This document shows positions 1,799-64,000 of a stretch of 64,000 nt of DNA, in pieces. Origin of the DNA: Apostichopus japonicus (lineage: Eukaryota > Echinodermata > Holothuroidea > Aspidochirotida > Stichopodidae); the NCBI RefSeq assembly GCF_037975245.1, contig NC_092561.1, positions 7,140,501-7,204,500 of the forward strand, written 5' to 3'. Below the pieces are notes generated by a model. It ran no database searches, was not told the DNA's origin, and saw nothing but the letters and a program-made list of their open reading frames with translations. Each line of letters begins with the position of its first letter. Position 1 is the stretch's first letter. The translations under genes and the position numbers were made by a program.

Positions 1799-2079
1799 GA
1801 TCTGTACCTTGGATGTCAAAGGGTGCCTTGCTCAGAGGAAGGGATCACACATTCCCCGGAAATAAAAAATCCCAAAATAATAGAACAGTCAATCAAAAAG
1901 GCGTGTACAGGTGTAAACTCTGTGACAGTGTTTTCTCCTACAAGGCTAGTCTTTACAGACATAAGAAATCTCACCTCAATCCAAGAGCGTTTGTCTGTTT
2001 TGTGTGTAACAAAGGATATCATCGTAGAGATTCCTTGAGCAATCACATCAGAACTCACAATATAATCGATCAAAGCTGA
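1799..2079 (+). CDS. E1: alternative 3'-terminal exon, two C2H2 zinc fingers
   Basis: Begins after a T-rich tract and AG at 1797-1798 (exon starts GA, phase 1) and ends at its own TGA. It encodes 92 full codons: a 37-residue basic linker, finger 1 at residues 38-58 (CKLC..HKKSH) and finger 2 at 66-86 (CFVC..HIRTH). The fingers are joined by LNPRAFV, not TGEKP. C2H2 fingers bind DNA in the nucleus, and two of them form a compact recognition module. There is no in-frame ATG close to the acceptor, so it is probably not a stand-alone gene. It is related to E2-E4 by the (K/R)G(F/Y)(Y/H)RKD-like second finger. Domain certain; splice use inferred. Confidence 0.88.
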
Positions 2080-2826
2080 AAACAGTGTCTGCTCGGACTG
2101 CTTCGCTGAAAACTGGAAAATTGCTGGTACTACTTGCAATGTTCTCCTGGTGTTTTTGTTTTTTTTTGTTTAATATAATACACAGAAGTACATACTTGCT
2201 CCAATTACAATATATTGCAATATTGGTCTAGATTTGTAGTGTGTTTTGGTGTTGCTAGGGCGGAAACCTTTGTCGGTCCGGTAAGAAGATCAGAAGAGAG
2301 CAGCCACAACGCCCGTATACTGTATCACAACAGTTCACAGATGCCAGCTTTGTAGACGTGGGCTTGAGAAATTTGAGCATTCTGCATTTGGTTTTAATCA
2401 ATGTGATGGGGATGGTGGGAGGGAGGGAGGGGGAGGGAGTAGGTTTGCAAACTTGTCTAGGAGAAAATTCCTGCAAGTGCAACCTCTCCCTCAACCCTCC
2501 GGATCAAATTCCTTATCAGAGAGTACTGTATATACTGCTCAGGAAAAAGATACCTTTCAGAACATCCTTTACATTCCCATTCCACCTCCAACCTCTCCTG
2601 TCCCCCATATAAGGGCTTATCGCTGGAAGGGAAGGGAAGGTTGTCAAATCAATGCAGAAGGTAGGAGTTAATCTTGAATAACTTAACAAACGAGACTCGG
2701 GTACATTTTGTCTTGAGAAGCAAAAGTACTTTAACTGTTAATTTGTCTGTTTAATGTTACTGAATTTTAAGTCCTTGACATAATTGGGCACAAACTCCGA
2801 CCCTTATCTTTCTCTTTGTTTGCTAG
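2080..2826. other. Inter-exon DNA between E1 and E2
   Basis: Holds the putative 3' UTR of E1 and the polypyrimidine tract and AG (2825-2826) of E2. A G-rich run lies near 2405-2440. No other coding signal seen. Confidence 0.6.
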
Positions 2827-3161
2827 GGGGTCCTCCCTCGATTGTGGAGAGAGGTCAGAAGTGCCCACGTTGCCATGAAGTAGTGAGAATGGCTGACCTA
2901 CCAACGCATTTGTGTACTTTCATAACAAAATCTGTGACGTATCCTCAAAAGCATGGAGGCATCGTCAAGCCTCCAGATAAGAAATTTAAGTGCAGATTTT
3001 GTGGCAAGAAATTCTCGTCCCAAGCAAACTGTTCAAGGCATTCAAAGTCTCATATCTCCCCCAGGGCTCACGTTTGCCCTGTTTGTAACAAGGGGTTCTA
3101 TCGGAAAGATAAATTTGTGGAACACTTTGCAGTCCATAGAATGCCTATGATTCCAAGTTGA
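2827..3161 (+). CDS. E2: alternative 3'-terminal exon, two C2H2 zinc fingers
   Basis: Acceptor AG at 2825-2826 follows tctctttgtttgct; exon starts GG (phase 1), stop TGA. 110 residues. A CPRC..DLPTHLC patch at residues 12-29 looks like an incomplete extra metal-binding site. Fingers lie at 55-75 (CRFC..HSKSH) and 83-103 (CPVC..HFAVH), with an ISPRAHV linker and GFYRKD in the second. It is closest to E3 in linker and second finger, so the pair looks like a tandem duplicate. Role: DNA-binding cassette of a transcription factor isoform. The CPRC patch may be functional or chance. Confidence 0.9.
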
Positions 3162-4186
3162 AGCCTGTTTGCCATGTAGGAAGAAATTAAAGAGGTTCAG
3201 TAAATTAAAACATTAATATAGCTAGTAGCCACAATATGTAGAAACAATTGTTTTTAATCATTAATTACTCGTTAATTGTACAGTTAACTTGTAAAAACAA
3301 AACATATTTACAACAAAGGTTATGTTTGGTTGATGGCAACCTTATGTATGAGTGCTACCCGAGTGGGTACCAAAGTTGAGAAAAGTTGAGTAATAGAGAC
3401 AAAAACACCCGACAGTCAACAAATAGTTTTTAATATTCGACAGAGATCATTATGAAAAATAACTGTACATACCAAATGGCTAAAACAGGATTCTTGTTTC
3501 GGTTGAGGGATAGCCTAGTTTAAAAGATGTAAGTGAAATACATGGTTGACTTTGTGTCTCCTTAACAGGCATGAGCTTTTTCCACGAATTTGCGGAATAT
3601 CCATGATTTCTTTTCTACCTCGGGGACAAAAACTATTATCCTAACACACTGTAGCATACGCAAACTGGAGCCTATATCACAATTTTTGCAAAGTTCCGTG
3701 ATTTTTTTTTACCCCTTTTTTACGACTTGGCAAGAGATGCATATTGTTATAGATCATGACACAGACTTGAAGTCATTCCTTGCTTGCAATGTGGGAAAAG
3801 TCAGTACTGTAATTGTTAACAAGTTACACAGAGCAAAGGAAAGATTGTCCTTGCTGGCAAATGTATTATAATATCAATGAAAGTGAGAGAAAACAAAATA
3901 CCTGGCCAGTTCTTCTTTAATTTTAAAGCTTCAGCGTCTGGGAAAAAAGAGAAGGACATATGACTGATCATGTCTAGCTTGTCACATCACGTTTTTCGAG
4001 AGTTAAATCCCGCTATCGGTATTAAATTGTGATCACTTTGACAGCCTGTATGTTTGTTAATGATAGAATTGTTAAATATATACACAGTACTCAGTAATGG
4101 TTAAATACAGTAAATGGTGAAAAAGAGAATAAAACCTGTGAAAACAAGAAAGTTGTGTATGTTTTATTTCTTTTGTTTTTGTCCAG
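3162..4186. other. Inter-exon DNA with dispersed repeat copy
   Basis: Contains the 3' UTR of E2 (ATTAAA at 3186-3191). A segment at about 3570-3712 recurs at about 21110-21226, including the shared phrase cactgtagcatacgc. The E3 polypyrimidine tract is at 4160-4186. No other gene seen. Confidence 0.6.
3570..3712. repeat. Dispersed repeat, second copy near 21.1 kb
   Basis: Shares with 21110-21226 the ordered words ctacctc-gggacaaaaact, atcctaacacactgtag, ggagcctata and gcaaagttccgtgattttt. Same orientation in both copies. Family not recognised. Confidence 0.65.
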
Positions 4187-4542
4187 GAAGTTTTACTCTG
4201 ATGTCTCATAGCAGAGTAGGTTGTCCTCAAAGTCGACTAAAAGAGGGAAAATCTGATTCCACCAAGATGCAAACATGTTTAACGTATAGAGCACCTTTGA
4301 GAGCAAGCACCGATCCAGGGAAGAAACAATTTAAATGCAAATATTTGAACTGCAATAAAGTGTACGCCTTTCAGGCCAACTGCTACCGACACGAAAGATC
4401 TCACCGCGACCCTAGGGCACATGTGTGCGTTATTTGCGACCGGGGCTTTTACCGTAAAGATGAACTGGCTAGACATTTAGAAGCTCACAAAAGAAAACTT
4501 GCAAGAGTTGAAAAGCGAACAACTGTATTGCATACCCATTGA
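4187..4542 (+). CDS. E3: alternative 3'-terminal exon, two C2H2 zinc fingers
   Basis: Acceptor ttgtttttgtccag ends at 4186; exon starts GA (phase 1), stop TGA. 117 residues. Finger 1 is at residues 50-72 with an unusual C-x4-C spacing (CKYLNC) before HERSH. Finger 2 is at 80-100 (CVIC..HLEAH) with GFYRKD. The linker RDPRAHV parallels E2. A basic tail (KRKLARVEKR) follows and could add DNA contacts or nuclear import. The reading frame into the intron is open, but the first in-frame ATG after the acceptor has no context as a gene start. Domain call firm. Confidence 0.9.
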
Positions 4543-6263: not shown

Positions 6264-6592
6264 GAACTTATCATCCAGAGGGTTTCACCATCAATGAGGG
6301 TTCCCATCTTCTTAGCAAGCAACAGGAGGTCTTCGTCTCTGACTACGTTCCCCAAAACACAGGCCGCACCACTGCCGCCACTACCTCCCCCGTGGGCGGC
6401 CCAAGGAAGAATTTTGTTAGGAAGAAAGTCCGTTATTGTTGCGAGTTTTGCGATAAAACTTACACGAGTCTGTCCCACTGTCAACGGCATGAGAGAACCC
6501 ACTTAGGAGTTAAGCCACATCAGTGTCACATATGCTGTCGGGCATTTCACAGAAAAGACGTGCTCAAGAGGCACATAAAGACCCACTTTTGA
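6264..6592 (+). CDS. E4: alternative 3'-terminal exon, two C2H2 zinc fingers
   Basis: Acceptor tattattgtttag ends at 6263; exon starts GA (phase 1). The frame is open from there to TGA, so the exon begins well before the first internal ATG. 108 residues: a Pro/Ala/Thr-rich linker, finger 1 at 59-79 (CEFC..HERTH), linker LGVKPHQ and finger 2 at 87-107 (CHIC..HIKTH) with HRKD. It ends one residue after the last His. It groups with E1-E3 by the second finger, but its linker is more TGEKP-like and so resembles the minus-strand exons. Confidence 0.9.
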
Positions 6593-8929: not shown

Positions 8930-9432
8930 GAATGCACTTGCGCTGCACCGCGAAAGGAAATCGGAACCCGTCAGTTCCTAACCGTCAAGCTCCTAACCGT
9001 CAAGCTCCCAAACGCCCCTCGACCCAACAACTCCCTAGTCCTAACCAACAAAACTCTCAGAGAGGGACACAAAACTTGTCTTCGACAGAAGCTGCTACCC
9101 CCTTGTACGCTTGCAGCTATTGTGGCAAAAGTTATGACACCATGCACAAATGGAAAGTCCACGTACGGTTCCATCAGCTTCAGGGACGTTTCCGTTGTCG
9201 TTTCTGTCCCAGAGGGTTCGCGAGATCCGGAGATCTTACCCGCCACGAGCGCGTTCACACGGGGGAGAGGCCGTTCGAGTGTACCTACTGTCCCAAAGCA
9301 TTCACCCGTATGGCCACCCTTCGCGAACATGAAATGATCCACACGGGTCAAAGACCTTTTCAGTGCAAAGTTTGCGGTAAACTGTTCAGGAAAAAGAGTG
9401 TCATGAATTACCACGAGAGGAATAAACATTAA
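8930..9432 (+). CDS. E5: alternative 3'-terminal exon, four C2H2 zinc fingers
   Basis: Acceptor tctttttgttttag ends at 8929; exon starts GA (phase 1), stop TAA. 166 residues. The linker (1-58) is Asn/Pro/Gln-rich with a duplicated PNRQA motif. Fingers are at 61-81, 89-109, 117-137 and 145-166. Finger 1 to 2 has the atypical linker QLQGRFR; the later linkers are TGERPFE and TGQRPFQ, the canonical DNA-binding type. The last finger ends exactly at the C-terminus (H-x4-H). It is one of the longest finger sets in the array and more GC-rich than the flanks. Only 171 bp separate it from E6. Confidence 0.93.
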
Positions 9433-9603: not shown

Positions 9604-9965
9604 GACCATCTTCAAGGGATGATTGGTCAGAACGATCTCTTAGGCATGGAAAGGCTTCGAGTGTTGTGGCCTGGGAAGAATGGTCTCAAAGGTCGCTAAC
9701 AGAAGTGAAATTTGCCTGTAAAATTTGTGGGAAAGGATACGACTCCTTTGACAAGTTAAAAGTTCATATAAACTATCACCAGAATGCCGGGCGGTACAAG
9801 TGCGGTTATTGTAGTAAAACATTTCATTCAAAGGGAGACACAAACCGCCACGAAAGAACCCATACCGGTGAGAAGCCGTACAAATGTTCATACTGTGGAA
9901 GACGTTTCACACAGATAGCCAGCCTCCACAAGCATGTTAAACATGTCCATGAAGAAATAGAATAA
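9604..9965 (+). CDS. E6: alternative 3'-terminal exon, three C2H2 zinc fingers
   Basis: Acceptor ttttccttgtgtag ends at 9603; exon starts GA (phase 1), and the frame is open before any start codon. 119 residues: fingers at 38-58, 66-86 and 94-115 (last H-x4-H), linkers QNAGRYK then TGEKPYK. Closely related to E7 (same CGYC.KTFHS second finger). An AATAAA lies 80 bases after the stop. Because no AATAAA occurs between E5 and E6, an E5 transcript might run on to this site. Confidence 0.93.
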
Positions 9966-12080: not shown

Positions 12081-12430
12081 GACGGGCTCCCCCCGGGAAG
12101 GGTAAATCCTCCGGTAGTGTGGTACCGAGACAGGAGAGGCTCCACAGGTACCTCACAGAAGTTTTAAGTTCCTCCTCAGTGAAATTTGTCTGCAAAATCT
12201 GTTCAAAACAATTTGACAGCATTGGGAAATTCAGGGCGCACGAAGGATACCATCAAAGAGCTGGTCGCTACAAGTGCGGGTACTGCGGCAAAACATTCCA
12301 TTCACTGGCGGATACCAAAAGACACGAGAGAATACACACCGGAGAGAAACCGTACAAGTGTTCAGTCTGTGGTCGGGGGTTTACACAAGTGACGAATCGT
12401 AACATGCATGAGAACATACACCTTCGATAG
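12081..12430 (+). CDS. E7: alternative 3'-terminal exon, three C2H2 zinc fingers
   Basis: Acceptor tgttttcttgttcag ends at 12080; exon starts GA (phase 1), stop TAG. 115 residues: fingers at 37-57, 65-85 and 93-113, with linkers QRAGRYK and TGEKPYK. The last finger ends two residues before the C-terminus. Closest to E6 (shared CGYCGKTFHS-type finger 2). Oddity: the exon's last finger and its 3' flank have been amplified in tandem just downstream (12325-12910), leaving broken finger copies. Candidate ATTAAA at 12504-12509. Confidence 0.93.
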
Positions 12431-12910
12431 GCTAATTCGCTGGTTTGTAGGCTCAGACAAGTGTGTGTGAGCACTACCTTGTACGGTTAGGCTATCATTG
12501 TGCATTAAACAGTTTATACACGAAAGAATACGCACTGGAGAGAAACTGTACAAGTAGTCAGTTTGTGGTCAGGGATTTACACAAGTGACGAATCGTAACA
12601 TGCTTGAAAACATACTCTTTCGCTAGGCTAATTCGCTGGTTTGTAGGCTCGGACAAGTGTGTGTGAGCACTGCCTTGTACGTTACGGTTAGGCTATCATT
12701 GTGCAATAAACAGTTTATACACGAAAGAATACGCACTGGAGAGAAACCGTGCAAGTGTTCAGTCTGTGGTCGGGGGTTTACACAAGTGACGAATCGTAAC
12801 ATGCATGAGAACATACTCTTTCGCTAGGCTAATTCGCTGGTATGTACAGTACGCTTAGACAAGTGTTGTGAGCACTACCTTGTATGGTATGGTTAGCTTA
12901 TCATTGTTCA
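12325..12910 (+). repeat. Tandem triplication of the E7 third finger plus 3' flank (period 196-201 bp)
   Basis: Units start at 12325 (inside E7), 12521 and 12722, each with cga(g/a)agaata followed by the third-finger codons and the same 3' flank (aattcgctggt.tgta). The two downstream units are pseudogenic. In unit 2 the finger reads YK then a stop (TAG) in place of the first Cys codon. Unit 3 keeps tgttcagtctgtgg but has no acceptor. They do not form new exons. Confidence 0.85.
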
Positions 12911-14269: not shown

Positions 14270-14829
14270 GGAAAATTCAATCTTGCCCTCCACCTCAGCA
14301 AGTCCATGAGCAGAGTTTGGTGCCCGGTCAAAAGGATTCCACCCATCAAAGTGATCTCCTTCCCTCCTTGGAGTCCTCACTCATTAGAGTTGTTGAATTA
14401 AGGGGACCTGAGCATACCGCTGCTACTACCACTACTTCTATCTCATCACTTCCCCATCCGCATCAAATCAACCGACCAATAAATACCCTTGCAGGCAAAA
14501 TCACTTCCACAAAGTCCCATGTTCGCTCGCTCAAAACAAAAGCACCCCCGTCCAGTTCACCTTCGACCAGACCTAGTTTTTGTAGATTTTGTGGTAAATT
14601 GTTCACAGACCCTTTAAAATATAAAGCTCACGAGGCTTACCATTCCAAGTTAGGGCGGTATCCTTGTAAATTCTGCGGGAAAGCTTTCCACTGCAAAGGG
14701 AACATGGAGAGGCACGAGAGGGTACATACCGGTGAAAGGCCTTACTCTTGTCGTTTTTGCGATCGAAAGTTTGGCCAAGGCACACACTGCCGAACTCACG
14801 AGGCTACACATCATTTTGTAAATAAGTAA
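14270..14829 (+). CDS. E8: alternative 3'-terminal exon, three C2H2 zinc fingers
   Basis: Exon starts GG (phase 1) after the acceptor at 14268-14269, stop TAA. 185 residues: a long Ser/Thr/Pro-rich exon-specific linker (1-100), fingers at 104-124 (CRFC..HEAYH), 132-152 and 160-180. The linkers are SKLGRYP and TGERPYS. The YKAHExYH first finger is shared with E9, E12 and E13 (YRAHEAYH in E11) and defines the core of the plus-strand family. The long disordered linker could space the shared N-terminal domain from DNA. Domain call firm; isoform use inferred. Confidence 0.93.
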
Positions 14830-15550: not shown

Positions 15551-16062
15551 GGCCCTTGGAACCAAATGACTCTGGTCTCATGCTACAACATCAACAAGTT
15601 GGTGAGCGTAGTTTCATCATTGAGAAAAGTTCAGAAAAATGTTCTCACAGTGAAGCAGATGAGTTTAAATTGACAGAAGGAGAGATTCACCATCGTCCCT
15701 CCATGCAAATGGCCAGCACTTCTCTTATTTTAGTCCCTCTTCAAAGCTCTAAAAGCATAAAACTTACATCCTTGCATGGTCAGGGTACAGCCCCGTCAAA
15801 TATATCTCCAAAATATTGTAGATTCTGCGGAAAATATTTTTCAAACGTAGCAAAATACAAAGCGCACGAAATATACCACTCAAAAGCCGGTCGTTTCCCT
15901 TGTAAGTTTTGTGACAAAGCTTTTCACAACAAGGCTAATCTAGTCCGCCACGAGAGGGTCCATACTGGAGAGAAGCCATTCCCGTGTAAATACTGTGATA
16001 AGACCTTTGCTCAAATTTCTCATTGTAGAAACCATGAGCTGATACACACAAAAGTTGAATAG
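15551..16062 (+). CDS. E9: alternative 3'-terminal exon, three C2H2 zinc fingers
   Basis: Acceptor tttgttttttgtatag ends at 15550; exon starts GG (phase 1), stop TAG. 169 residues: an acidic-to-mixed linker (1-85), fingers at 89-109 (CRFC..HEIYH), 117-137 and 145-165, with linkers SKAGRFP and TGEKPFP. Strongly similar to E8 in all three fingers (e.g. KAFH.K.N second finger, HCR.HE third), so probably a tandem duplicate with a diverged linker. AATAAA follows 69 bases after the stop. Confidence 0.93.
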
Positions 16063-17330: not shown

Positions 17331-17348
17331 ATCCCTGGCTGCAAAGCT
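17331..17348 (+). repeat. Target-site duplication, left copy
   Basis: atccctggctgcaaagct, identical to 17537-17554. It brackets the U2-headed element. The last bases overlap the start of the U2 match (gctt), so the element's exact first base is uncertain by about 3. Confidence 0.85.
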
Positions 17349-17536
17349 TCTCGGCCTTTTGGCTAAGATCATGTGTAGTATCTGTTCCCTTTCGAGGGGA
17401 ATGGTGATGCGCACCCGACGATGATCACACAGTCACAGTCCTGATGCAAGGGGACTAGGGTTGAGAGCGGATCAGTCGTTCGGTAGTTTGGTTTTCGGGC
17501 CCAGGTTCTTTCCTGGGCGACTTTTTCTTAAAAAGT
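17349..17536 (+). mobile_element. SINE-like retroposon with a U2 snRNA 5' head
   Basis: Positions 17346-17387 match the 5' end of U2 snRNA (gcttctcggccttttggc.. to ..gtagtatctgttc) with one visible difference (atgtg for aagtg). From 17388 the sequence is unrelated to U2: there is no Sm site or 3' stem-loops. The element is flanked by a perfect 18-bp direct repeat, atccctggctgcaaagct, at 17331-17348 and 17537-17554, the hallmark of LINE-driven insertion. snRNA-headed SINEs (SINEU class) are known from crocodilians. It is not a working U2 gene. An older relative lies near 38.5 kb. Confidence 0.85.
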
Positions 17537-19718: not shown

Positions 19719-20254
19719 GGCATCTTGTACCACTTTCTCCGTCAACTTTTCCAAAAGATCAAGAACTGGTTTCCACATCAGAGGTGTTGGCCCCTATAGA
19801 GCACCCAAGCAAGGACCCCCAAATGTACCACACACCTGTGCAAGTTATGACAGAGAGACCACGCATAGTGTCTCTCTCAAGGACCACAGGTGCAATAAAT
19901 ATCTCAGAGGGTAGAAATGTAAACCCAAGGAAATACCTCCAGAAAGCATCAGACCTTGCAAACCTGCAAGGTGGTAGAACAATGCCAAAAAGTCTTCCAA
20001 CGACTACACCAGCATTTTGTAGACACTGTGGTAAAAAATTCATGGACCTTATCAAGCTCAAATCGCATGAACTGTATCACGCACATGCTGGTCGTCACCC
20101 TTGCAGGTATTGCGGAAAAGCCTTCCCGTTTAGGGGAAATTTACGTAACCATGAAAGGAGTCACACGGGCGAGAGGCCTTACCTTTGTCGATACTGTGGC
20201 AAGGGGTTCACCCGGATGCCCAACTGCCGCAGACACGAAGCAAAGAAACATTAG
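19719..20254 (+). CDS. E10: alternative 3'-terminal exon, three C2H2 zinc fingers
   Basis: Acceptor ttttctctctttgttcag ends at 19718; exon starts GG (phase 1), stop TAG. 177 residues: a 99-residue linker, fingers at 100-120 (CRHC..HELYH), 128-148 and 156-177 (C-terminal, H-x4-H). Linkers AHAGRHP and TGERPYL. Belongs with E8/E9/E11-E13. The finger set ends at the last residue. Only 159 bp separate this stop from the E11 acceptor, and no AATAAA lies between them, so its transcript must either end at a variant signal or run through E11. Confidence 0.93.
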
Positions 20255-20413: not shown

Positions 20414-20970
20414 GGCTCAGAAGACAGATCCTTACCCAGCAGCAACACTATTTCTCTGGGCAAAGTCCTGCATCGCTTGACAATCCAAATACTCCTTTTA
20501 GTGATCACAGCTCTCTTGGTCAGCCTGTAGCAGAAAGCTCTGCCACATTAAATGTAGACTTGATTGCAACTACATCAAATCGTAAAACTGTCCGTCGTAG
20601 CAAAGCTCCTACCCCAAAGAAGAAAAACCCCGCAGGCGGTCCCCCAGACGACCCCCCAGATACTGAGACTACCGCTGAAGGTGGATCAGATGCTAATCGC
20701 TTTCCAGCGTTCTGTAGATACTGTGGCAAAAAGTTTTCAAATTTGGTCAAGTACAGAGCCCACGAGGCCTACCATGCTAAAGAACCTCGGTTCCCTTGTA
20801 GGTTCTGCGGAAAACCCTCTCACAGCAAATCGAACATGCTCCGTCACGAACGGACGCACACGGGAGAGAAACCTTTCAAGTGCCGTATCTGTGACAGATC
20901 TTTTACATTTAAGGAAAATGCAACCAGTCATGAAAGGATCCATACTAGAGGAATAAAACTCTGTAAATAG
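20414..20970 (+). CDS. E11: alternative 3'-terminal exon, three C2H2 zinc fingers
   Basis: Acceptor tttctgtctcattttgtctatag ends at 20413; exon starts GG (phase 1), stop TAG. 184 residues. The leader RRQILTQ..YFSGQ is shared with E12 and E13. A Pro/Lys-rich basic patch (KAPTPKKKNPAGG) follows. Fingers lie at 100-120, 128-148 and 156-176; finger 2 has CGKPSHSK instead of the usual CGKxF, losing the conserved aromatic. The first linker AKEPRFP lacks the GR core. It ends soon after finger 3, where E12/E13 have a fourth finger, so E11 looks like the truncated member of the trio. Confidence 0.93.
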
Positions 20971-21226: not shown

Positions 21227-21239
21227 AGGCTCATCCCTG

Positions 21240-22243: not shown

Positions 22244-22881
22244 AACCCGGAAGACATATTCCAACCCAGCTGCCAGAATATTTCACTGGGCAATTTATTC
22301 CACTGAATGAAAGAGTGCCTCAGGAAATCCCTACTGCAAAGCGGAGTTCGCATCCCTCCTTTAGCACAGAAACCTCGACTACCTCTAAAAATTATTGGTC
22401 TGCAGGCAAACCAGAAAGTAACAAAGGAATATTAAATAAGAGTAACCTCACCTCATCGGGGGAGGAAGCTAACAGTGCTGCTGCGCAACTGCAAACTCCA
22501 CTCGCAGTTTCATCTGATGTGGACCCCTCTCCAGCCTTTTGTAGATTTTGTGGCAAAAAGTTTTCAAATCTCACAAAGTACAAAGCCCATGAGTCCTATC
22601 ACAAGAAAGGTGATCGATTTCCGTGCAGGTTCTGCGGAAAACTTTCCCATAACAAATTTAACATGCTTCGTCACGAACGTACTCACACGGGTGAAAAACC
22701 CTTCAATTGCCGGGTCTGTGGCAAGTCTTTCAAGTTTAAAGAGAACTTAAAGAGCCATGAAATGACGCACACGAGAGAGAGGCCTTACAAGTGTCAGACT
22801 TGTGGCAAACCTTTCACCCAAGCATCTAGCTGTAAACGACATGAAGCAACTTGCACATACTTTGAGCAGTCCACAGCTTGA
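22244..22881 (+). CDS. E12: alternative 3'-terminal exon, four zinc fingers
   Basis: Acceptor tatctttgtcttcttttacctag ends at 22243; exon starts AA (phase 1; Glu if the donor ends in G), stop TGA. 211 residues: leader GRHIPTQLPEYFTGQ near-identical to E13, then a Ser/Thr-rich linker. Fingers at 99-119, 127-147, 155-175 and 183-203. The fourth uses Cys as last ligand (HEATC, C2HC). Finger 2 has CGKLSHNK, as in E11/E13. Linkers KKGDRFP, TGEKPFN, TRERPYK. It is the longest exon seen here and clearly a recent duplicate of E13. Confidence 0.93.
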
Positions 22882-23746: not shown

Positions 23747-24348
23747 GACCTGGAAGACAGATCCCTGCCCAGCTGCCAGAACATTTCACTGGGCAAGGTT
23801 TCTCATCGTATGAAAGAGAGAGTCAAAAGACCTCTTTTCCCTCTGTCAGAACAGGGAGCTCACATGCCCAATGGTCTGCCGGCGCATCAGGGAGTAGAAA
23901 AATTAAAAGAATTAACCCAAATATTGGCAAGAATACCATCCAAATTGCCCCCCTAAACCCTGAGACTCCTGATGCAAATCAACCAGAAGCTGTTGCTGCC
24001 CCGACATTTTGTAGATTCTGTGGCAAACAGTTTGCAAACCTCGCAAAGTACAAAGCTCATGAAATTTATCATACCAAACCCCCTCGATTCCCTTGTAAGT
24101 TCTGTGGCAAACCGTCCCACAGCAAAGCTAACATGCTGCGCCATGAACGTACCCACACGGGAGAGAAGCCGTTCAAGTGTCGTTTCTGTAAAAAATCCTT
24201 CCCATTTAAGGAGACTCTGACAGGCCACGAGAGACTCCACACTGGAGAAAAGCCCTACAAATGTCGCACTTGTGGTAAAAGATTTACCCACGGTGCAACG
24301 TGCCGCAGACATGAAGCAGCAAATACTTGCTTTGAAGAAGCGGAGTAA
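23747..24348 (+). CDS. E13: alternative 3'-terminal exon, four zinc fingers
   Basis: Acceptor tctctgtcttctttcatccag ends at 23746; exon starts GA (phase 1), stop TAA. 199 residues: leader GRQIPAQLPEHFTGQ (shared with E12), fingers at 88-108 (HEIYH), 116-136, 144-164 and 172-194. The last finger has a Cys (HEAANTC) in place of the second His. Finger 2 is CGKPSHSK as in E11. Linkers TKPPRFP, TGEKPFK, TGEKPYK. With E11 and E12 it forms a recent tandem trio. It is followed by the largest exon-free gap on the plus strand. Confidence 0.93.
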
Positions 24349-29217: not shown

Positions 29218-29594
29218 GACCCGCTTCATTAATAACACGTAGAAGCCAGATCATTGGACAACAGACACAGTTAGCCACCACTCAAGCTGAAACCTTGACC
29301 AATAGGAACTCAAGACAGGAAACAGATCCACTTGTCGCTCACGATGTTTTATATCGTTGTAAACTCTGCGATAAGTTATTTTCGCAGCGCAGAAAGTATA
29401 AGAGTCACGAGTTGTACCACAAACGAAAGGGCCGTTTCAAATGTCAGTTTTGTAATCAGACCTTCCATGCCACGTCGGACATGGAACGTCACGAAAGACT
29501 TCATACTGGTGTCAAACCTTTCGAGTGTATATTCTGTGGGAAAGCCTTTGCCCGAGATTCAAATTGTAAGGAGCACATGAAAAGACATAAATAG
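29218..29594 (+). CDS. E14: alternative 3'-terminal exon, three C2H2 zinc fingers
   Basis: Exon starts GA (phase 1) after AG at 29216-29217, and the frame is open before any internal ATG. Stop TAG. 124 residues: fingers at 47-67 (CKLC..HELYH), 75-95 and 103-123, with linkers KRKGRFK and TGVKPFE. The last finger ends one residue before the C-terminus. Similar to E15 and E17 (KxxGRFKC linker). The stop is only 98 bp from the next exon with no AATAAA between, so an E14 mRNA must carry part or all of E15 as 3' UTR unless a variant signal is used. Confidence 0.93.
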
Positions 29595-29692: not shown

Positions 29693-30108
29693 GAATGGGT
29701 GGGCAAAACTTCTCTCGTCCAGCTGCTGTCTCACCAAGGGGAAAGCAGAACACCCCGCGACAGCAGCGCAACGTTAACCAATCCGGCGCTAATGTTAGCA
29801 AGGTTAGGCACCTCTCTAGTCCGGGCCCGCCATCTGTGGTAGGTTCGTCGGACCTAGCCGAGGCAAATCACTGCCGCTATTGTGGGAAGAAGTTCGCTGA
29901 AATAAAAAAACTGAGGGAACACGAAAGCTATCACAAACGCATAGGTCGCTTTAAGTGCCAGTACTGTCTGAGTCCATTTCATACAAAAGCAAACGTCGTA
30001 CGTCATGAAAAGACTCACACAGATGACAAACCTTACAAATGTAGAATTTGTGGACAAGGTTTCGTTTGGTTGATGACTTGTATGAATCACGAGAAGACCC
30101 ACAAATGA
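29693..30108 (+). CDS. E15: alternative 3'-terminal exon, three C2H2 zinc fingers
   Basis: Acceptor tttctgtttccttctcag ends at 29692; exon starts GA (phase 1), immediately followed by an in-frame ATG, stop TGA. 137 residues: a basic, Gln/Asn/Ser/Pro-rich linker (1-58), fingers at 60-80 (CRYC..HESYH), 88-108 and 116-136. Linkers KRIGRFK and TDDKPYK. A MITE begins 20 bp after the stop (30128-30356). The ATG right after the acceptor could in principle start a protein, but the acceptor and shared phase argue for splicing. Confidence 0.93.
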
Positions 30109-33581: not shown

Positions 33582-33874
33582 GCTTGGCATCAGTTGGCGG
33601 GTTCCATCCAATCGTTACTGCCTCTCGTGCCATTCCTCTCGCCTCAAACGAGAAACATAAAAAGGTTCACAAAAAACACGACGATTTCGAGAAGAAGCTT
33701 CAATGCAGTTATTGCACAAAGCGTTTTGCCTGGCGAGCATACCTTCGCCGCCACGAACTCTCTCATACCGGGGAGAAACCCCACAAGTGTCCTATTTGTG
33801 ACAGGAGATTTGGTCAAGTTTCTCATCTAAATATCCATTTAACGCGACACCGAAAGAAACTGGAAAATCTTTAG
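33582..33874 (+). CDS. E16: alternative 3'-terminal exon, two C2H2 zinc fingers
   Basis: Acceptor tttatatttctgtttctttgcttag ends at 33581; exon starts GC (phase 1), stop TAG. 96 residues: a basic His/Lys-rich linker, finger 1 at 41-61 (CSYC..HELSH), canonical linker TGEKPHK and finger 2 at 69-89 (CPIC..HLTRH), then a short basic tail. Unlike its neighbours it lacks the GR-type linker and has only two fingers, joined by the classical DNA-binding linker. Confidence 0.92.
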
Positions 33875-36376: not shown

Positions 36377-36828
36377 GCATCATTGGTGAGACACCAGCCG
36401 AACTGCTTAGTTATGACTCTCTCGAAGCATCACCGAAAAAGAGACGACCAACCGGTCTCCACTCAAAGGAAGCAACGAAAAGGAAAGCCATCGTATCACC
36501 GTTATCGTCAACTTTACCTTTGGAAAAGTTTCCATTGTCAGGTGACGATAAGACTGGAGCTTATTGCCGACAATGTGGGAAGTTTGTCAGCGGGTTGCAA
36601 CGGTTACGGGCGCATGAACGGTATCACGAAAAGTCAGGCCGTTTCAAATGTCGATTTTGTGGGAAACTTTTCGCCGGCAAGGGAGATATGAAACGTCATG
36701 AGAGAATTCACACTGGGGAAAAGCCTTATAACTGTTCCGTCTGTGAGAGGTCCTTCGCAACTCTATCCAACCGAAAGACGCACGAATCTAACGTACACTT
36801 CACGAAAAACAAGGGCAAATATACATGA
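36377..36828 (+). CDS. E17: alternative 3'-terminal exon, three C2H2 zinc fingers
   Basis: Acceptor tcatcttctctctttcatgcag ends at 36376; exon starts GC (phase 1), frame open through the 47-residue basic linker that precedes the first internal ATG. Stop TGA. 149 residues: fingers at 63-83 (CRQC..HERYH), 91-111 and 119-140 (H-x4-H), linkers EKSGRFK and TGEKPYN. Typical plus-strand family member, near E14/E15. The linker contains KKRRP- and RKQRK-like clusters when read through the frame, suitable for nuclear import. Confidence 0.92.
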
Positions 36829-39341: not shown

Positions 39342-39838
39342 CTCAGGTACCACATCAGTCTGGGGTATTCGACGGTAGTGGAAAGATGTCATTATCGTCA
39401 TCATCATCGTCATCATCATTGCGGAACAGATCTTTTATCAAATCTCGTATTCATCGTGAATCTGGAATACTACAAACAGGAAGGCCCTGGAGTTTTCGAT
39501 GTGAAGCTTGTACCGCATCTTTCGAAGATGAGAGCAAACTACGACAGCATGAGTGCCAAAACGATCTTCGCCATTGTCGTTACTGCGGAAGAGGTTTCAA
39601 CACGACCGGAAATCTCAGACGTCATGAGAGAGTTCACACAGGAGAGAAGCCATTCCAATGTCGCTTCTGTAACAAATCATTTACTCGGAAGGAAGGTGTA
39701 AGACTCCATGAGAATCTTCACACCGGAAGGAATCCTTTTGCATGTATCTATTGTGGCATGTCATTCCCGAGAAATAAAAGCCGCAAAAATCACGAGAAAA
39801 CGTGCACCTTCATCCCAAATCCGATTATCGATCAGTGA
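39342..39838 (+). CDS. E18: alternative 3'-terminal exon, four zinc fingers, first and last with Cys ligand
   Basis: Acceptor tcatgtctttttctttgcgtatag ends at 39341; exon starts CT (phase 1; Ala if the donor ends in G), stop TGA. 164 residues: a poly-Ser run (SLSSSSSSSSL), then a first finger-like unit at 53-71 whose ligands would be C, C, H and C (HEC). Regular fingers lie at 78-98 and 106-126. A last finger at 134-154 ends HEKTC (C2HC). Linkers NDLRH, TGEKPFQ and TGRNPFA. The PRNKSRKNHE motif in the last finger resembles E19, E20 and E27 more than E5-E17. Confidence 0.9.
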
Positions 39839-42806: not shown

Positions 42807-43150
42807 GTCATCAACTCAGGAGGAGACATTTCTACTGGCCGACAGGAGCGGAGGGGTCTGACAGAGGTACAGCAAGAGGACCGCAATATCTGTTCCAATG
42901 CCGATACTGCCACAAGACAATGGCGTCCAGACATTCCATGGAAATTCATGAACGCGTACACACTGGGGAAACACCCTTTCGATGTCGAATTTGTGGACGT
43001 GGTTTCATTCGGGAATTTAGTCGTAAAGCTCACGAAGTAGTCCATACCCCACAGACCCCTTATTCGTGTAATATTTGTGGAAAAGGTTTATATCGGAAAG
43101 ACAGTATTAAACGCCATAAACGGTCAGTTCACAAAATATATTCCGACTAA
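42807..43150 (+). CDS. E19: last plus-strand terminal exon, three C2H2 zinc fingers
   Basis: Acceptor tttttttttctctccctctgtttggcag ends at 42806; exon starts GT (phase 1), stop TAA. 113 residues: a short linker, fingers at 31-51 (CRYC..HERVH), 59-79 and 87-108 (H-x4-H), linkers TGETPFR and TPQTPYS. No GR-type linker. The SRKAHE motif in finger 2 is shared with the minus-strand E27 and LYRKD in finger 3 with E1-E4. It ends 318 bp from the stop of the convergent exon E20, marking the strand switch. Confidence 0.92.
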
Positions 43151-43468: not shown

Positions 43469-43731
43469 TTATTCTGGTGCGATACTCAATGCTTGTGTAA
43501 TGATTCCGTGTCTATTTTCATGTCTAACACGACTGTTTTGTCTGGTGAATCCTTTGTGACATATTTGGCATTGGTATGGTTTAATGCCACCGTGAGATCT
43601 TTCATGTCTCTTTAAATCACCTGTCCGCTTGAAGAACCTACCGCAAAATGTACAGTTGCTATGGCGTTGTCCTTTGTCCTGCTGAAGGGTGGACTTCCCT
43701 GGTCTCTCATATCCCCGCAAAGTTGCAAGAT
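43469..43731 (-). CDS. E20: minus-strand terminal exon, two C2H2 zinc fingers
   Basis: Read on the minus strand, the acceptor attatatttaccacag ends at 43732; exon starts AT (phase 1; Asp if the donor ends in G), stop TAA. The tract before the AG is A/T-rich, a weaker acceptor than most. 86 residues: a basic linker, fingers at 26-46 (CTFC..HERSH) and 54-74 (CQIC..HENRH), linker GGIKPYQ. RTGDLKRHE and the GxKP linker place it in the minus-strand subfamily. Possible lost fingers follow the stop (43151-43468). Confidence 0.87.
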
Positions 43732-46605: not shown

Positions 46606-46961
46606 TCACGTTTCTTCGACTACGGCAGAATGTGAATTTTGAAGATGTAACGCAAGTGTTGCTGGGTTTGTGAAGCAGGCGTCACAAAATGAGCATTCAG
46701 CTAAGACATCTTGGTCAGGTCTGGAGTTATGGGTCCTTTCATGCATTCGGCAATGATCGGCACGGGTGAACCGTTTAGAGCACATAAAGCACTTGTACTG
46801 TTTGATCCCAATGTGGATTCGTTCGTGTCTCTTACATACTCCAGACTGGCTAAATACTTTGTTGCAGAACTTGCATGTTCGTTTGTTTGTCCCGCCCCGA
46901 GTAGAAGAGGTCTTTTGAATAGGTCGTTGCTGTAAGCATCTGCGGAGTATGCCACCCTCAT
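46606..46961 (-). CDS. E21: minus-strand terminal exon, three C2H2 zinc fingers
   Basis: Acceptor on the minus strand, gtttttttgtctttttgtttag, ends at 46962; exon starts AT (phase 1). 117 residues: a basic linker, fingers at 29-49 (CKFC..HERIH), 57-77 (CFMC..HERTH) and 89-110 (CSFC..HLQNSH, H-x4-H). The first linker is IGIKQYK and the second a longer NSRPDQDVLAE, so the third finger is set apart and may act in protein contact rather than DNA reading. This three-finger layout with a distant third finger is shared with E22, E24 and E25. Confidence 0.92.
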
Positions 46962-49229: not shown

Positions 49230-49552
49230 TCATCTCTTTTCACCATGTACTTGTTCTAAATGGTGCAGAAGAAAGTCCAAAGCCTCGAACGACATGTGGC
49301 AATACACACAGGTGATCGGGCGATTTCTGCGAAGGTGTGTCTTTTCGTGAGCTTTGAGATGGTCCGATCGGTAAAATTTCCTGGAGCAACCTTTACAATG
49401 GAAAGGGGTGATCCCCGAATGAACCCGTTCGTGTCGCTTCCGATCACCTGCGAGCTTATATGTCTTATCACAGAACCGACACCTCTTACGGTCGTCGTCC
49501 GGTCCTCCTGTAAAGTCTCTCTCCCGGAATCGTGAGGTAGCTCGATCTAGCC
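49230..49552 (-). CDS. E22: minus-strand terminal exon without any start codon, three C2H2 zinc fingers
   Basis: Found by reading the minus strand directly: acceptor cctctcttttctcaatcag ends at 49553, exon starts GG (phase 1), frame open to TGA at 49230-49232. 106 residues: linker with an RFRERD..GGPDDD stretch, fingers at 24-44 (CRFC..HERVH), 52-72 (CKGC..HEKTH) and 81-102 (CVYC..HLEQVH, H-x4-H). Linkers SGITPFH and LRRNRPIT. No ATG precedes the fingers, so translation is only possible by splicing from an upstream coding exon. FYRSDHLKAHEKTH is nearly the same in E23, its neighbour. Confidence 0.9.
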
Positions 49553-50341
49553 CTGATTGAGAAAAGAGAGGTGTGAGGCGGTCACTATCTTTGTCTTATG
49601 TGTATGCAAATAAACAGAATGGCGTTCCAAAACAGGTTACTATTTAACGCACTCACTTTATAAGAGAACCATGAGCAAGACAAGAAAATCATGACGTCAT
49701 GGTCTTTACCGAAGTAAAACTGCGGTCATCGTATCATTCGACATGGTCTTTACCGAAGTAAAACTGCGGTCATCGTATCATTCGACATGGTCTTTACCGA
49801 AGTAAAACTGCGGTCATCGTATCATTCGACATGGTCTTTACCGAAGTAAAACTGCGGTCATCGTATCATTCGACATGGTCTTTACCGAAGTAAAACTGCG
49901 GTCATCGATCGTATCATTCGTGTTTGGTACGTGTCACGTGAAGGATCTCAGTAAAACGCGCATTTTCAGAGCAGACTGATTGAGAAGGGGCAAAAATGTG
50001 TGAATATCAAAGACAGTATCACAATCCATTTATCTGAAACAATGGTTTTACTTCCCTTGCCATTCGCACAAACAAATATTCCTTACACTTAACAATGGAG
50101 CTGCTACGTGGTCCAAGTAGCAGCTTCCAGGTTAAAAACAATATTGTACAATAACTCGACGTCGAAGTTCCTTCGCCATGAGCCTAAAAGTTTGTGAATC
50201 GCTGCACTTACTGATATACAAACTAAAACACTAAAACAAAAATTCCTTCGTCCTCAACGTTTCAAGTTTGCATCAAACTTTTGCATTGAAAGTGCTGAAA
50301 TGCTAATGCCGAAAAATGCTGAACTGCTAATTAACAAATCG
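49553..50341. other. Inter-exon DNA between E23 and E22, with 44-bp satellite
   Basis: Mainly the five-copy 44-bp array (49698-49920) and the putative 3' UTR of E23. No other gene. Confidence 0.6.
49698..49920. repeat. Near-perfect 44-bp minisatellite, five copies
   Basis: Units start catggtctttaccg at 49698, 49742, 49786, 49830 and 49874. Four are identical by eye; the last has a 4-bp insertion (cgatcgtatc). Such homogeneity points to very recent expansion, and length variation between individuals is likely. It lies within the intron/3' region between E23 and E22. Confidence 0.92.
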
Positions 50342-50604
50342 CTAAGAGAGAGGCGTTTGGTCTTCCGTGTAAATATGGGACTTCCATGGGCGCGGGAAAT
50401 GGGTCTTCTCGTGGAGTTTGAGATGATCCGAGCGGTAAAAACTCTTAGTACAGTATCGACACTGGTAAGACCGAATCCCAAGATGTATGAGCTCGTGCCT
50501 CTTACGGGCAGCCGGTACGCTGAATTTACGGTTGCAAAAATTGCATTCGGTTCTGGTTTTATCTTCGACAGATTGAGAAGCTTTTCCCGTCATCTGGAAG
50601 GCCC
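50342..50604 (-). CDS. E23: minus-strand terminal exon, two C2H2 zinc fingers
   Basis: Acceptor on the minus strand, cttcttttcccgtcag, ends at 50605; exon starts GG (phase 1), stop TAG. 86 residues: fingers at 20-40 (CNFC..HELIH) and 48-68 (CRYC..HEKTH), linker LGIRSYQ, then a short tail. The FYRSDHLKLHEKTH second finger is nearly that of E22, so these two neighbours are tandem duplicates. E23 has lost or never had the third finger that E22 keeps. Confidence 0.92.
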
Positions 50605-56934: not shown

Positions 56935-57275
56935 TTAGGTCTGATGAAACTGCCTTGATACGCACACCGCCACATGTTCCTTTAGCAGATCGCTGTTAAC
57001 GAACAACGCCTTGCACTTCAGGCACTGAAACGACATTGGCTTTTCGTGAGACTTGATGTGCATGTTGCAGTTGTCGTTTCTTCCAAAGCTCTTTGAGCAA
57101 TAAATGCACTGGAAGGGTTTGGTACCCAGGTGGATTTTCTCGTGTCTCCTACGGACGGCAGGATTGATGAACATCTTTCCGCACGTCTTGCAGTCCCTGT
57201 GTTTACCGCTCTCCCCTGTCGATCTTCTGTTCACTCGATTGCCGACAGTCTCTCGGATATTAACGGCAAAGTCTC
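56935..57275 (-). CDS. E24: minus-strand terminal exon, two C2H2 fingers plus a C2HC finger
   Basis: Acceptor on the minus strand, tttgcaattttccttctag, ends at 57276; exon starts GA (phase 1) and is open before any start codon. 112 residues: fingers at 28-48 (CKTC..HEKIH), 56-76 (CIYC..HIKSH) and 84-104 (CLKC..HVAVC, last ligand Cys). Linkers LGTKPFQ and EKPMSFQ. Nearly the same design as E25: FINPAVRRRHE/ITSAVRRRHE, RND.C.MHIKSHEKPMSFQ and LFVNS.LLKEHVA.C. The two form the clearest duplicate pair of the minus strand, even in their acceptors (attttccttNtag). Confidence 0.93.
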
Positions 57276-57504: not shown

Positions 57505-57821
57505 TTAATACTGCAGTAAACAGTTTGCCACATGCTCCTTCAAGAGTTCGCTGTTGACGAACAGACCTTTGCATTTCAGACATTGAAAGGACATTGGCTT
57601 TTCATGAGATTTGATGTGCATCTTACAGGTATCGTTTCGATTGAACTTTTTCGGGCAATAGATGCAATGGAACGGTTTGATGTTGAGGTGTATCATTTCA
57701 TGCCTCCGTCGAACGGCGGAAGTGATGTACATTTTGCCACAATGCTTGCACTGGCGGTCTTCCGGTGTCTCGACCTTGCGTCTTCCCGGTTTGGGACCTC
57801 TCTTGAGGGCTTCGTACGGTC
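57505..57821 (-). CDS. E25: minus-strand terminal exon, two C2H2 fingers plus a C2HC finger
   Basis: Acceptor on the minus strand, ttgctgcaattttccttgtag, ends at 57822; exon starts GA (phase 1), stop TAA. 104 residues: a basic linker (KRGPKPGRRK), fingers at 24-44 (CKHC..HEMIH), 52-72 (CIYC..HIKSH) and 80-100 (CLKC..HVANC). Linkers LNIKPFH and EKPMSFQ. Duplicate of E24, 229 bp away. The strongest conservation between the two lies in the second linker and the C2HC third finger rather than in finger 1, suggesting that part is under selection, perhaps for a partner contact. Confidence 0.93.
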
Positions 57822-58057
57822 CTACAAGGAAAATTGCAGCAAAATGATTCATGGCTGTCGCATATTGAACAAAGGGTAGAATAAATGGTCGATGAGATGG
57901 GCCGCAAGCAAACAAAACGGTAATCATTTTCAAATGCAAATGTAGAGCTATTACGCATGTTAACGTTCCATTTGAAAAGCTTCCGTGGAAATCTTAGTCG
58001 TTTAAATATTCTTTTGAGTATCTCAAACGACCTACCCACTGTGCGGAGCGTTCCACT

Positions 58058-58383
58058 TCAGAGAACTACTTTGACTTTGCATTTATCTCTGTGTCGACGC
58101 AGAGTGTTGTACCAGGTAAAGCTCTCCCCGCACCGCTCGCACTTGTACAATTTCACCCCCGTGTGGGTCCGTTCGTGCCTAACACGGCCATCTTCCCTAG
58201 CGTACACTTTCTCGCAGAACGAACATTTGAAAGGTCGGTTGCCGCTGTGGACCAACTCGTGATGCATAGCCTGTCTGGCCGTGCTGAGCGTCTTGAAACA
58301 AATACGACAGTGAAACAATTGAGGGGAACCAATCTTTCTCCTGGGGACCACTGGGTTTGCATCCAGGGCCTCTGTTAAGGATT
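58058..58383 (-). CDS. E26: minus-strand terminal exon, two C2H2 fingers plus a C2HC finger
   Basis: Acceptor on the minus strand, cgtttctttgttttatag, ends at 58384; exon starts AA (phase 1; Glu if the donor ends in G), stop TAA. 107 residues: fingers at 25-45 (CRIC..HELVH), 53-73 (CSFC..HERTH) and 81-101 (CERC..HRDKC). Linkers SGNRPFK and TGVKLYK. It ends with a basic/hydrophobic tail (KVKVVL). Evenly spaced fingers, unlike E24/E25. Only 236 bp separate its stop from the E25 acceptor. Confidence 0.92.
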
Positions 58384-58641
58384 CTATAAAACAAAGAAAC
58401 GGGACCATGTATCAGCAGTCATAGGAAAAAAGTGTACTTTTGGATATTTTTGCGGCAGGCCATGGAGCAATTTGCAAAGGGGGGGGGGGGCGGGGACATT
58501 AAGTGATGCTATCTATATATGTCAATTACAAGCAAGCAATGAGGTGGTCAACAAAGTTGCACTGATTATCATTTACACAATCAGTTTAGGTCATAAACAG
58601 CATTTCATCCCATCTCCTGAGACCATGACTGCCTTCAACGT

Positions 58642-59008
58642 GACAGATCACTAGTAATATTACTCTCCCCTACTAGCTGCAACTGACTGACCTCAGTGCT
58701 GGAAAATTTTGGCTGTACTGTATGTGTGACAACAGACGTGGACCCTTTCGGAACAATGGACCAGCCCGCCCTCACAAATATACCTGAATACTGTTTCTAT
58801 AGCAATTCTTGAAGGGCTCATAACTACATTGACAGATCACTAGTAATAACTCTCCCCTACTACTAGCTGCAACTGACTGACCTCAGTGCTGGAAAGTTTT
58901 GGCTGTATGACAACAGATGTAGACCCTTTTGGAACAATGGACCAACCCGCCCTCACGAATATACCTGAATGCTGTTTCTATAGCAATTCTTGAAGGGCTC
59001 GTAATTAC
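58642..59008. repeat. Tandem duplication, period 189 bp
   Basis: Copies 58642-58830 and 58831-59008 match along their length (gacagatcactagtaat, ctgcaactgactgacctcag, cctcac.aatatacctgaat), with small indels. Recent duplication, non-coding. Confidence 0.9.
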
Positions 59009-62000: not shown

Positions 62001-62259
62001 TTCTTTGATGAAGGGCTATATATATATATGTAATAACACAAGCTTCTTCAAAGAACTCAAGTTTATTGAGCCATCAAAAAGCTAAAATGTTATATGTCCA
62101 TATGTTAGAAAAAAAAAGATTTGCAAATTACCATCACTACGAAAGAAAATAAGTATAACTGAATAAAGAAAAACAAATACAGTAAATGTTCATGCACCTG
62201 TGTCCTAATGTTGTCAAGTTTTAAGTCTAATGAAGTCTTCAATATAGTGTATGAGCAAA

Positions 62260-62265
62260 CCTATT

Positions 62266-62303
<38 letters not shown>
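62260..62303. repeat. (AT)n microsatellite
   Basis: Alternating TA run with one or two interruptions. Likely length-polymorphic. Confidence 0.9.
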
Positions 62304-62310
<7 letters not shown>

Positions 62311-62498
62311 GAAAGCCTCAAACAATTCAGAATTCAAAATTTGAGTTTTAAGTTCGCTTCCACAAATTGACCACTATCTGTGAGAAACAACCCAACCAGA
62401 TCTTTCATTTTGAAAACATGCCACTGTCCTCCACATTCCTCTGAAAACATCTCTCAATCTCTCCAATTTTCTGTCACAATGAAAGCATGAATGCTAGA

Positions 62499-62767
62499 CA
62501 GGCGCGTAGCGAGGAATTGGGAGGGGCGAAGCTCGAGGCAAATTATCTAAGCGTAGCGCCACCATGAGTTGGCGCGGAAGGTACAAGAAAATTTTGGCCG
62601 AAAATGCCTCCCATATGGCTGGAAATGGCCCTTCCCAGGCCTTGTAAGTTGCATCTAAGCATTTCCTATTTTGAAATTACTAGCGATATTATAAAAAATA
62701 TAGTAAAAATATGCTCAAGAAGGGGGCGGTCGCCCCCTTCGCCCCCTCCCCTTTGGCTACGCGCCTG
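62499..62767. mobile_element. hAT-like MITE (269 bp) with intact 8-bp target-site duplication
   Basis: 12-bp terminal inverted repeats caggcgcgtagc (62499-62510) and gctacgcgcctg (62756-62767), flanked by identical atgctaga at 62491-62498 and 62768-62775. 8-bp duplication and CAGG ends fit hAT. GC-rich ends, G/C palindrome near the right end, no transposase. Confidence 0.88.
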
Positions 62768-63028
62768 ATGCTAGAAATAGTCACTGCAATTAACTTATTC
62801 CTGACATAAATTTCTGAACAATTCACAAAATCAACATTTGAGTTTTGTCTTCAATTAATACAACTTTTACACACAAAATTCACAATTTTAGGAGCAAAAA
62901 TCTGGACTCAAAATGTTTTCCTGAAAAATTGTCACTGGCACAATATTGTCCAAACTCAATTAAAATGGATAAAATACAACTTTTTTTTTTACCATGACAG
63001 TTCAAAGTTGTCCCGAGCAAGTAGCTTT

Positions 63029-63374
63029 AAAGGTCTGCTGTATGAACCCCAAAAATAGCACGCTATCAGGGAAAAGTTTCTTGAGATTATGTAATCGAAC
63101 TGCCTTGGTCATGAAATGACCTCTTTTTACCAACTAGTCTGCAACGCCTTGTATGAGGGTCTTTGTGTGAACGCTGTATGATTAACTACACTGTAGACAT
63201 TCATGAACATATTTCCACACAGTGTTCACACAAAGAGCCTAATGGTGTTAAGAAGCTATGCAGGCTAATTAAAAAGCCTGCGGTCGAGTTACGACCGTGG
63301 CAGGTCAATTACGTAATCACAAAACTTATCCTAGCTATAGCGTGCTATAATCGGAGCCAATAAAGCAGATCTTT
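63029..63374. mobile_element. Longer MITE with AAAGGT-type inverted repeats (346 bp)
   Basis: Left end aaaggtctgctgtatgaacc; right end ggagccaataaagcagatcttt reads as its imperfect inverse. A second inverted word (agcacgctat / atagcgtgct) lies just inside. The ends match those at 30128 and 55294, the body does not, so it is probably a related family member. Confidence 0.65.
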
Positions 63375-63671
63375 AAACATTTCTAGAGCTACTTCGTTGC
63401 ATATGCTCCAAGAGAGAGAATGATCAATGCGGTTGAGGGATCTTATAGTCGACAAATTCTTTGTTGTGATGGGGTGAGATAGGCACAGGAACTGTCATGG
63501 TATGAAGCTACTGGATCAATGGTTCGCTTTACAAAACTGCAAAACATTCGCAGATGGTCCGCTTTTAAAAAGCAAAAAAATTGACATGTCCATACTTTGC
63601 CACTCTTACTGTTTCTTACTCACTAACTGTTGAAATCTAGCTCACTAACTGTCAAAACTTTTTTTTTTTTT

Positions 63672-64000
63672 TTAAGCGGTGAGGTCTTCTGGAATCTGAT
63701 TTCGAAAAGGGCATTTATTTTCGTGTGCTTTTCTCGACGGTTGTCTCGCGAAATGGACGTTACAAAATTGACACGCGTAGGGTTTGTAACCGGTGTGTTT
63801 CCTCTCGTGAATGCTCAGATGGTTTCTCTGATTGAAGGCACTGTGGCAAAATTTGCAGACAAACGGTTTTTGGCCGGTGTGTATGAGCTCGTGGCGCTTG
63901 CGATGCCACGACGAACTGTAATATTTCTGACAAAATTTGCACCGATTGCCTTCGGACCGGACAGAGGATGGGCTGTCCAGCACCGTTCTACTATGACCAC
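63672..64000 (-). CDS. E27: minus-strand terminal exon (partial, acceptor outside window), three zinc fingers
   Basis: Minus-strand frame open from the window edge to a TAA-type stop at 63672. No AG in the visible part lies in phase 1, so the acceptor is beyond 64000. Relative to the GTG at 63983, fingers lie at residues 15-35 (CKFC..HELIH), 43-63 (CKFC..HERKH) and 71-91 (CQFC..HENKC, C2HC). Linkers TGQKPFV and TGYKPYA are near-canonical. RQPSRKAHENKC recalls E18 (RNKSRKNHEKTC) and E19 (SRKAHE). The array therefore continues past the window. Confidence 0.9.
   Translation of the reverse strand, partial: GHSRTVLDSPSSVRSEGNRCKFCQKYYSSSWHRKRHELIHTGQKPFVCKFCHSAFNQRNHLSIHERKHTGYKPYACQFCNVHFARQPSRKAHENKCPFRNQIPEDLTA

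Follow-up and report, generated by a model that had tools for sequence, protein, structure and literature searches.

Two convergent NPL-domain genes in a sea cucumber, each predicted to be spliced to one of many alternative zinc-finger terminal exons

How many genes does a dense array of zinc-finger cassettes represent, and how would a cell use them? The question is raised by a 64,000-nucleotide stretch of the genome of the sea cucumber Apostichopus japonicus (hereafter, the window), which spans positions 7140501-7204500 of contig NC_092561.1 (C1) and has a GC content of 38.5%. A preliminary description, made from the letters alone, had rightly suspected a non-insect and possibly echinoderm source, and had read the window as 27 zinc-finger cassettes serving as alternative 3'-terminal exons of one locus, with the architecture of Drosophila lola and mod(mdg4). 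We studied the window with 100 kb of flanking sequence per side and searched the genome (671,581,487 bases, 35 contigs). The array very probably belongs to two convergent paralogous genes, each with a nucleoplasmin-like (NPL) head cis-spliced to one of 23 (plus strand) or 31 (minus strand) zinc-finger terminal exons, and the region could yield dozens of DNA-binding proteins.

A six-frame scan for C2H2 fingers recovered the 27 multi-finger cassettes of the window, each with two to four fingers and an open frame closing at its own stop behind the last finger. Nineteen lie on the plus strand (1799-43150), followed by eight on the minus strand (43469-64000), a switch absent from the preliminary description. 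The two arms meet tail to tail, with 318 bp between their last cassettes; we attribute the switch to the meeting of two convergent genes at this point. The array had also been expected to run beyond 64 kb and to hold more than 27 endings. In full it comprises 54 cassettes, numbered c1-c23 on the plus strand (C1:7134432-7183650) and c24-c54 on the minus strand (C1:7183969-7246220), a count that excludes several isolated weak matches and the extra pieces of last-finger sequence that follow c11 and c44. The window holds c5-c31, with four more plus-strand cassettes upstream and 23 more minus-strand cassettes downstream. At least one of PF00096, PF13465, and PF13894 exceeded its Pfam cut-off in all six cassettes scanned (six of the window's 27). 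An in-frame stop follows the last finger in all 54 cassettes, which speaks against their being internal exons joined serially into one long zinc-finger protein. The frame would in principle be kept by such joining, since all introns between the common exons described below are phase 1, but every cassette would also require an internal donor (no search for internal donors was made), and we find this explanation scarcely credible.

Acceptors were ranked with a score of our own, which considers the pyrimidine tract, a CAG or TAG, and the absence of a nearby AG, and is blind to phase. The top-scoring acceptor was phase 1 in 25 of the 26 window cassettes that start inside the window (cassette 20 by a tie; P 2e-11) and in 52 of 54 across the array (c24 by a tie; binomial P 1e-22 against a one-in-three chance), close to the uniform phase 1 originally claimed. 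In c17 and c38 the phase-1 acceptor ranked second. For c17, which is cassette 13 of the window, it scored 19.0 compared to 20.0 for the top site, and the resulting exon start aligns with that of a relative, cassette 12. Most cassettes were indeed found to lack a start codon before the fingers: 9 of the 26 window cassettes, and 21 of 54 array-wide, have an in-frame Met in the stretch from acceptor to first finger, leaving 33 without one. At the level of sequence, the proposal that these are alternative 3'-terminal exons is supported.

Common exons to which the cassettes could be joined were found on both flanks. Open frames to the left of the array on the plus strand were compared with those to the right on the minus strand, and homologous coding exons were the best and third-best matches, while a third homologous common exon, which is short, stood lower in the match list (E 0.001). 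Most other matches appeared repeat-like by eye, lay outside the common exons, and were not used. The common sets described here are the coding exons, with splice sites read by eye. On the left, the exons occupy C1:7121004-7121013, 7122040-7122132, 7122847-7122999, 7123490-7123609, and 7126604-7126999 (plus strand), the fifth ending in G before the donor GTGAGT. On the right, exon 1 runs from C1:7260155 over 10 bases, followed by 7259454-7259362, 7258717-7258559, 7257814-7257677, and 7255589-7255104 (minus strand), the fifth ending in A before GTAAGT. A shared 5' set ending in a phase-1 donor with a last base G had been predicted; the phase held on both sides, and the G on the left only. Each gene has five common exons with GT-AG sites and an open joined frame, and all introns, including the last one into the cassettes, are phase 1. 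Exon 1 encodes MIW plus the opening base of the codon that follows, exons 2-4 the NPL domain and an acidic stretch, and exon 5 a Gln-rich linker that in both genes reaches its phase-1 donor with no stop before it. Up to the cassette, the joined proteins are 257 aa (left) and 295 aa (right) long. From the left donor to the first and last acceptors the distances are 7.6 kb and 56 kb; from the right donor they are 8.9 kb and 71 kb.

On the joined exons, the NPL family (PF17800) matched across its domain, at model positions 1-93 (left) and 1-92 (right) of 94, with E values of 8.8e-20 and 4e-21 and scores of 71.7 and 76.0 bits, compared to a curated cut-off of 23.4. The same match was weaker on loosely cut pieces (E 2.6e-16 and 1.4e-17). 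No other Pfam domain was found on the joined proteins at E 0.01, hence neither FKBP nor BTB, and the Gln-rich fifth exons had none over cut-off. The flanks had been proposed as a place to look for a BTB or other dimerisation domain; none of the 59 BTB (PF00651) matches listed in an exon-by-exon search of the genome lay on C1, and NPL was found instead. The sole PDB profile match at E <=0.01 was the NPL of Drosophila FKBP39 (4ca9, E 0.0024), a weak one by sequence. The His-x-Ser motif, placed in the NPL pore by PMC4414354, is kept in the right gene (VHLSM), while Gln replaces the His in the left gene. Across NPL exons 1-3 the two genes are 72% identical, with a pN of 0.16 against a pS of 0.75, a sign of purifying selection.

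With its own common exons on each side, the region holds two convergent genes and not the single locus first described; one locus with obligatory trans-splicing was dropped once common exons had appeared on both flanks. Could trans-splicing nevertheless supply the cassettes of both strands from one shared 5' set, in the manner of mod(mdg4)? Cassettes do occupy both strands, every chosen acceptor fits either donor, and c49 of the minus arm nests among plus-arm cassettes, so a cassette can have changed genes. No cassette needs trans-splicing, however, because the plus and minus cassettes are each preceded, on the correct side, by common exons of their own strand, and the strands are cleanly separated rather than interspersed, making this arrangement unlikely. 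The donor introns were also examined for a strong donor-like motif as a hint of trans-splicing; there were none in the left gene and one in the right, which speaks neither way.

The Met residues before the fingers would also suit a reading of each cassette as a short zinc-finger gene in its own right, driven by a separate promoter, at least for the 21 that have such a Met. The other 33 do not, uniform phase-1 acceptors directly before each linker would serve no purpose in such genes, and exon 5 of both NPL genes runs without a stop into a phase-1 donor. We therefore place very little weight on independent genes, a reading to which counts of poly(A) hexamers are neutral.

Several observations do weigh against two NPL genes with alternative zinc-finger endings. 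Own promoters are possible for the 21 cassettes with an in-frame Met. AATAAA or ATTAAA occurred within 400 nt past the stop in 20 of 54 cassettes, compared to 23 on the reverse strand and 30 upstream of the acceptors, and three other distances likewise showed no enrichment after the stops. By pattern, c39 and c40 contain one finger each (two weak ones by profile), and their fingers show no sign of constraint (pS 0.12, pN 0.14). Finally, splicing itself is inferred from sequence anatomy.

Outside that exceptional pair, which looks recent and may be decaying, the fingers compared show purifying selection: of 15 pairs, 14 had a pN less than half their pS, though dS was mostly saturated. Helix contact signatures were all different among the 52 cassettes with strict fingers, and 119 of 134 strict fingers differed. 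Mean entropy at helix positions -1, 2, 3, and 6 was 3.42 bits compared to 2.76 at 13 other non-ligand positions, some non-contact positions being equally variable, so that this is a weak sign. The best match of a cassette lay within the same arm for 45 of 54 and was a neighbouring cassette for 29 of 54, the pattern that tandem duplication would leave. In a tree of the 54 cassettes (81 columns; strong support for 10 of 51 inner branches), the arms were clustered, with six changes compared to 17.7 when shuffled (0 of 500 shuffles as low). Right-arm c49 stands beside left-arm c12 (99/71), and the two share 62% over 183 aa including the linker; one cassette has thus probably passed between the two genes, a transfer that the uniform phase permits.

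The NPL family search gave 30 matches genome-wide. Among 20 loci read, the genes of the array included, 15 have a GT that follows the V-x-G motif of exon 3 at one and the same position, and five have the tiny first exon, ATGATTTGGG followed by GT. A third NPL locus with cassettes lies 220 kb away at C1:6902114, and its exon 2 protein is identical to that of the left gene. At least 14 cassette-like frames follow it downstream. Two were read within 8 kb, both with a phase-1 best acceptor, and 12 are known by place only: one at 6923866 from the family search and eleven at 6926156-6961342 from the cassette search. Over the three arrays this makes at least 68 cassettes, 12 of them by place only. 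By place lists only, five further NPL matches, on C1 (1138681), C4 (two), C14, and C22, have a same-strand zinc-finger frame within 25 kb downstream, and a C11 match has one 75 kb downstream. Of the 30 NPL matches, 7 have a zinc-finger match downstream on the same strand at a distance of up to 25 kb, compared to none with one upstream or on the opposite strand; at up to 80 kb the counts were 9 and 3, and one of the three is the left arm as encountered from the right gene. This comparison used 79 of 227 listed zinc-finger places, the rest being judged by eye to lie far from any NPL match. The zinc-finger searches scored 150 of 1992 (family) and 150 of 1161 (cassette) candidates, so these counts are lower bounds, and for the same reason the left gene was missed at 25 kb.

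Further observations were made during these searches. NPL exons with identical translation occur at C11:6259660 and C11:9541247 (3.3 Mb apart) and at C16:8275195 and 8239783 (35 kb apart), and are either recent copies or assembly duplications. Tandem clusters of BTB open frames lie at C18:13.40-13.43 Mb and C19:28.97-29.04 Mb. On C17, a dense one-strand cluster of conventional long-frame C2H2 genes spans 1.38-1.77 Mb, with no NPL match listed on that contig.

If the two NPL genes work as proposed, transcription would start at each outer promoter and run through the array. The phase-1 donor of exon 5 would join in cis one cassette with a linker, fingers, and stop of its own, and cleavage past that cassette would end the message, so that splice-site choice and 3' processing would set the ending. 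The products would have in common an oligomerising NPL head that probably binds histones, and would vary in the tail, which we expect to bind different DNA. The isolated NPL of FKBP39 is reported to be a pentamer that binds core histones moderately and without preference (PMC4414354), and full-length FKBP39 to be a tetramer (PMC5225439). By analogy, an NPL ring with several finger arms could grip several DNA sites and the local histones, and isoforms might mix within an oligomer because they have the same head.

Both lola and mod(mdg4) are built on the TTK-type BTB domain of arthropods. The layout of the two, with common 5' exons and alternative zinc-finger 3' exons in one phase, is found here in the sequence, and that part of the original comparison stands; the family does not, since the N-terminal BTB is missing and both head domain and phylum differ. 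Lola is reported to have 20 isoforms, of which 17 carry different C2H2 fingers (PMC11426971). The sea cucumber genes similarly combine a common N-terminal oligomerising region with one of many C2H2 endings, but they do so with NPL in an echinoderm, as a convergent pair with 23 and 31 endings, and with further NPL loci elsewhere. Mod(mdg4) is reported to have over 30 alternative 3' exons, of which some lie on the opposite strand (PMC4528330, PMC12692577), with trans-splicing of all isoforms (PMC12692577) and mostly FLYWCH endings (PMC11426971). Many alternative 3' exons on both strands are a common feature, whereas here each strand owns a common exon set, a layout without need for trans-splicing.

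Among NPL proteins, the consulted part of PMC4414354 names three classes (NPL-FKBP, HD-tuin, and nucleoplasmin), none of them an animal multi-finger protein. HD-tuins (plant HD2) likewise have an N-terminal NPL and a C-terminal C2H2, with no array of alternative endings described in that part (PMC4414354). They are plant proteins, however, while our genes belong to an animal and carry two to four fingers in swappable exons. NPL-FKBPs and nucleoplasmins share the NPL head, and FKBP39 is the best PDB match, but the tails here are zinc fingers and the common exons have no FKBP domain at E 0.01. Nucleoplasmins have a tail without a C-terminal domain; here an open phase-1 donor precedes the zinc-finger exons, to which splicing would lead. 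No record of animal NPL plus zinc-finger arrays came up in searches of the open-access literature, which returned papers on FKBP39, plant proteins, an oyster cell atlas, or unrelated subjects. Public gene models may already hold pieces of these genes.

Were two such genes confirmed, a deuterostome would have a lola-like layout whose oligomerising domain is unrelated to BTB. The design of a ring-forming head with many swappable DNA-binding tails would have evolved more than once, with the head interchangeable, and animal proteins that combine NPL with several fingers would form a class beside the three listed in PMC4414354. A broader and tentative suggestion, which we think has some chance of being right but would not expect to be, is that echinoderms, or at least one holothurian, arrived independently at a lola-like system built from a histone-chaperone fold. 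In it, several members of a family of NPL loci would carry swappable zinc-finger arrays, and the NPL heads would mix isoforms in ring oligomers to give combinatorial, multi-armed chromatin regulators. Taken purely as an arithmetic bound, pentamers drawn from 54 endings could have about 4.6 million compositions.

The window cassettes, placed by finger scan, open frames, and acceptor score, are given here in window coordinates with array numbers in brackets. On the plus strand, two fingers each are carried by cassettes 1 (c5) at 1799..2079, 2 (c6) at 2827..3161, 3 (c7) at 4187..4542, 4 (c8) at 6264..6592, and 16 (c20) at 33582..33874. Four fingers are found in cassettes 5 (c9) at 8930..9432, 12 (c16) at 22244..22881, and 13 (c17) at 23747..24348, the last being the one whose phase-1 acceptor is second by score. 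The three-finger cassettes of this strand are 6 (c10) at 9604..9965, 7 (c11) at 12081..12430, 8 (c12) at 14270..14829, whose closest relative is c49 outside the window, 9 (c13) at 15551..16062, 10 (c14) at 19719..20254, 11 (c15) at 20414..20970, 14 (c18) at 29218..29594, 15 (c19) at 29693..30108, 17 (c21) at 36377..36828, 18 (c22) at 39342..39838, and 19 (c23) at 42807..43150, the final cassette of the plus-strand gene. On the minus strand, cassettes 20 (c24) at 43469..43731, the final one of its gene and the one with a tied acceptor, and 23 (c27) at 50342..50604 have two fingers. Three are present in cassettes 21 (c25) at 46606..46961, 22 (c26) at 49230..49552, 24 (c28) at 56935..57275, 25 (c29) at 57505..57821, which is close to c28, 26 (c30) at 58058..58383, and 27 (c31) at 63672..64000, whose phase-1 acceptor lies 12 bases past the window end.

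The last-finger sequence of c11 is repeated just past its stop (window 12322-12907, plus strand), as is that of c44 (C1:7230657-7231069, minus strand), possibly a route of finger gain or loss. Between two minus-strand cassettes, at window 49698-49907, a 44 bp unit is repeated in tandem for 4.8 copies with a 100% match; this perfect repeat is probably very young. Neighbours of the two genes include a death-domain/TIR-like frame pair at C1:7295086-7299189 and a catalase-like exon at 7091823-7092221, both on the minus strand and named by reading alone, without a family search. A U2 snRNA-like match at window 17343-17419 on the plus strand (50.5 bits compared to a cut-off of 46) covers 77 bases of a 192-position model and is probably a pseudogene.

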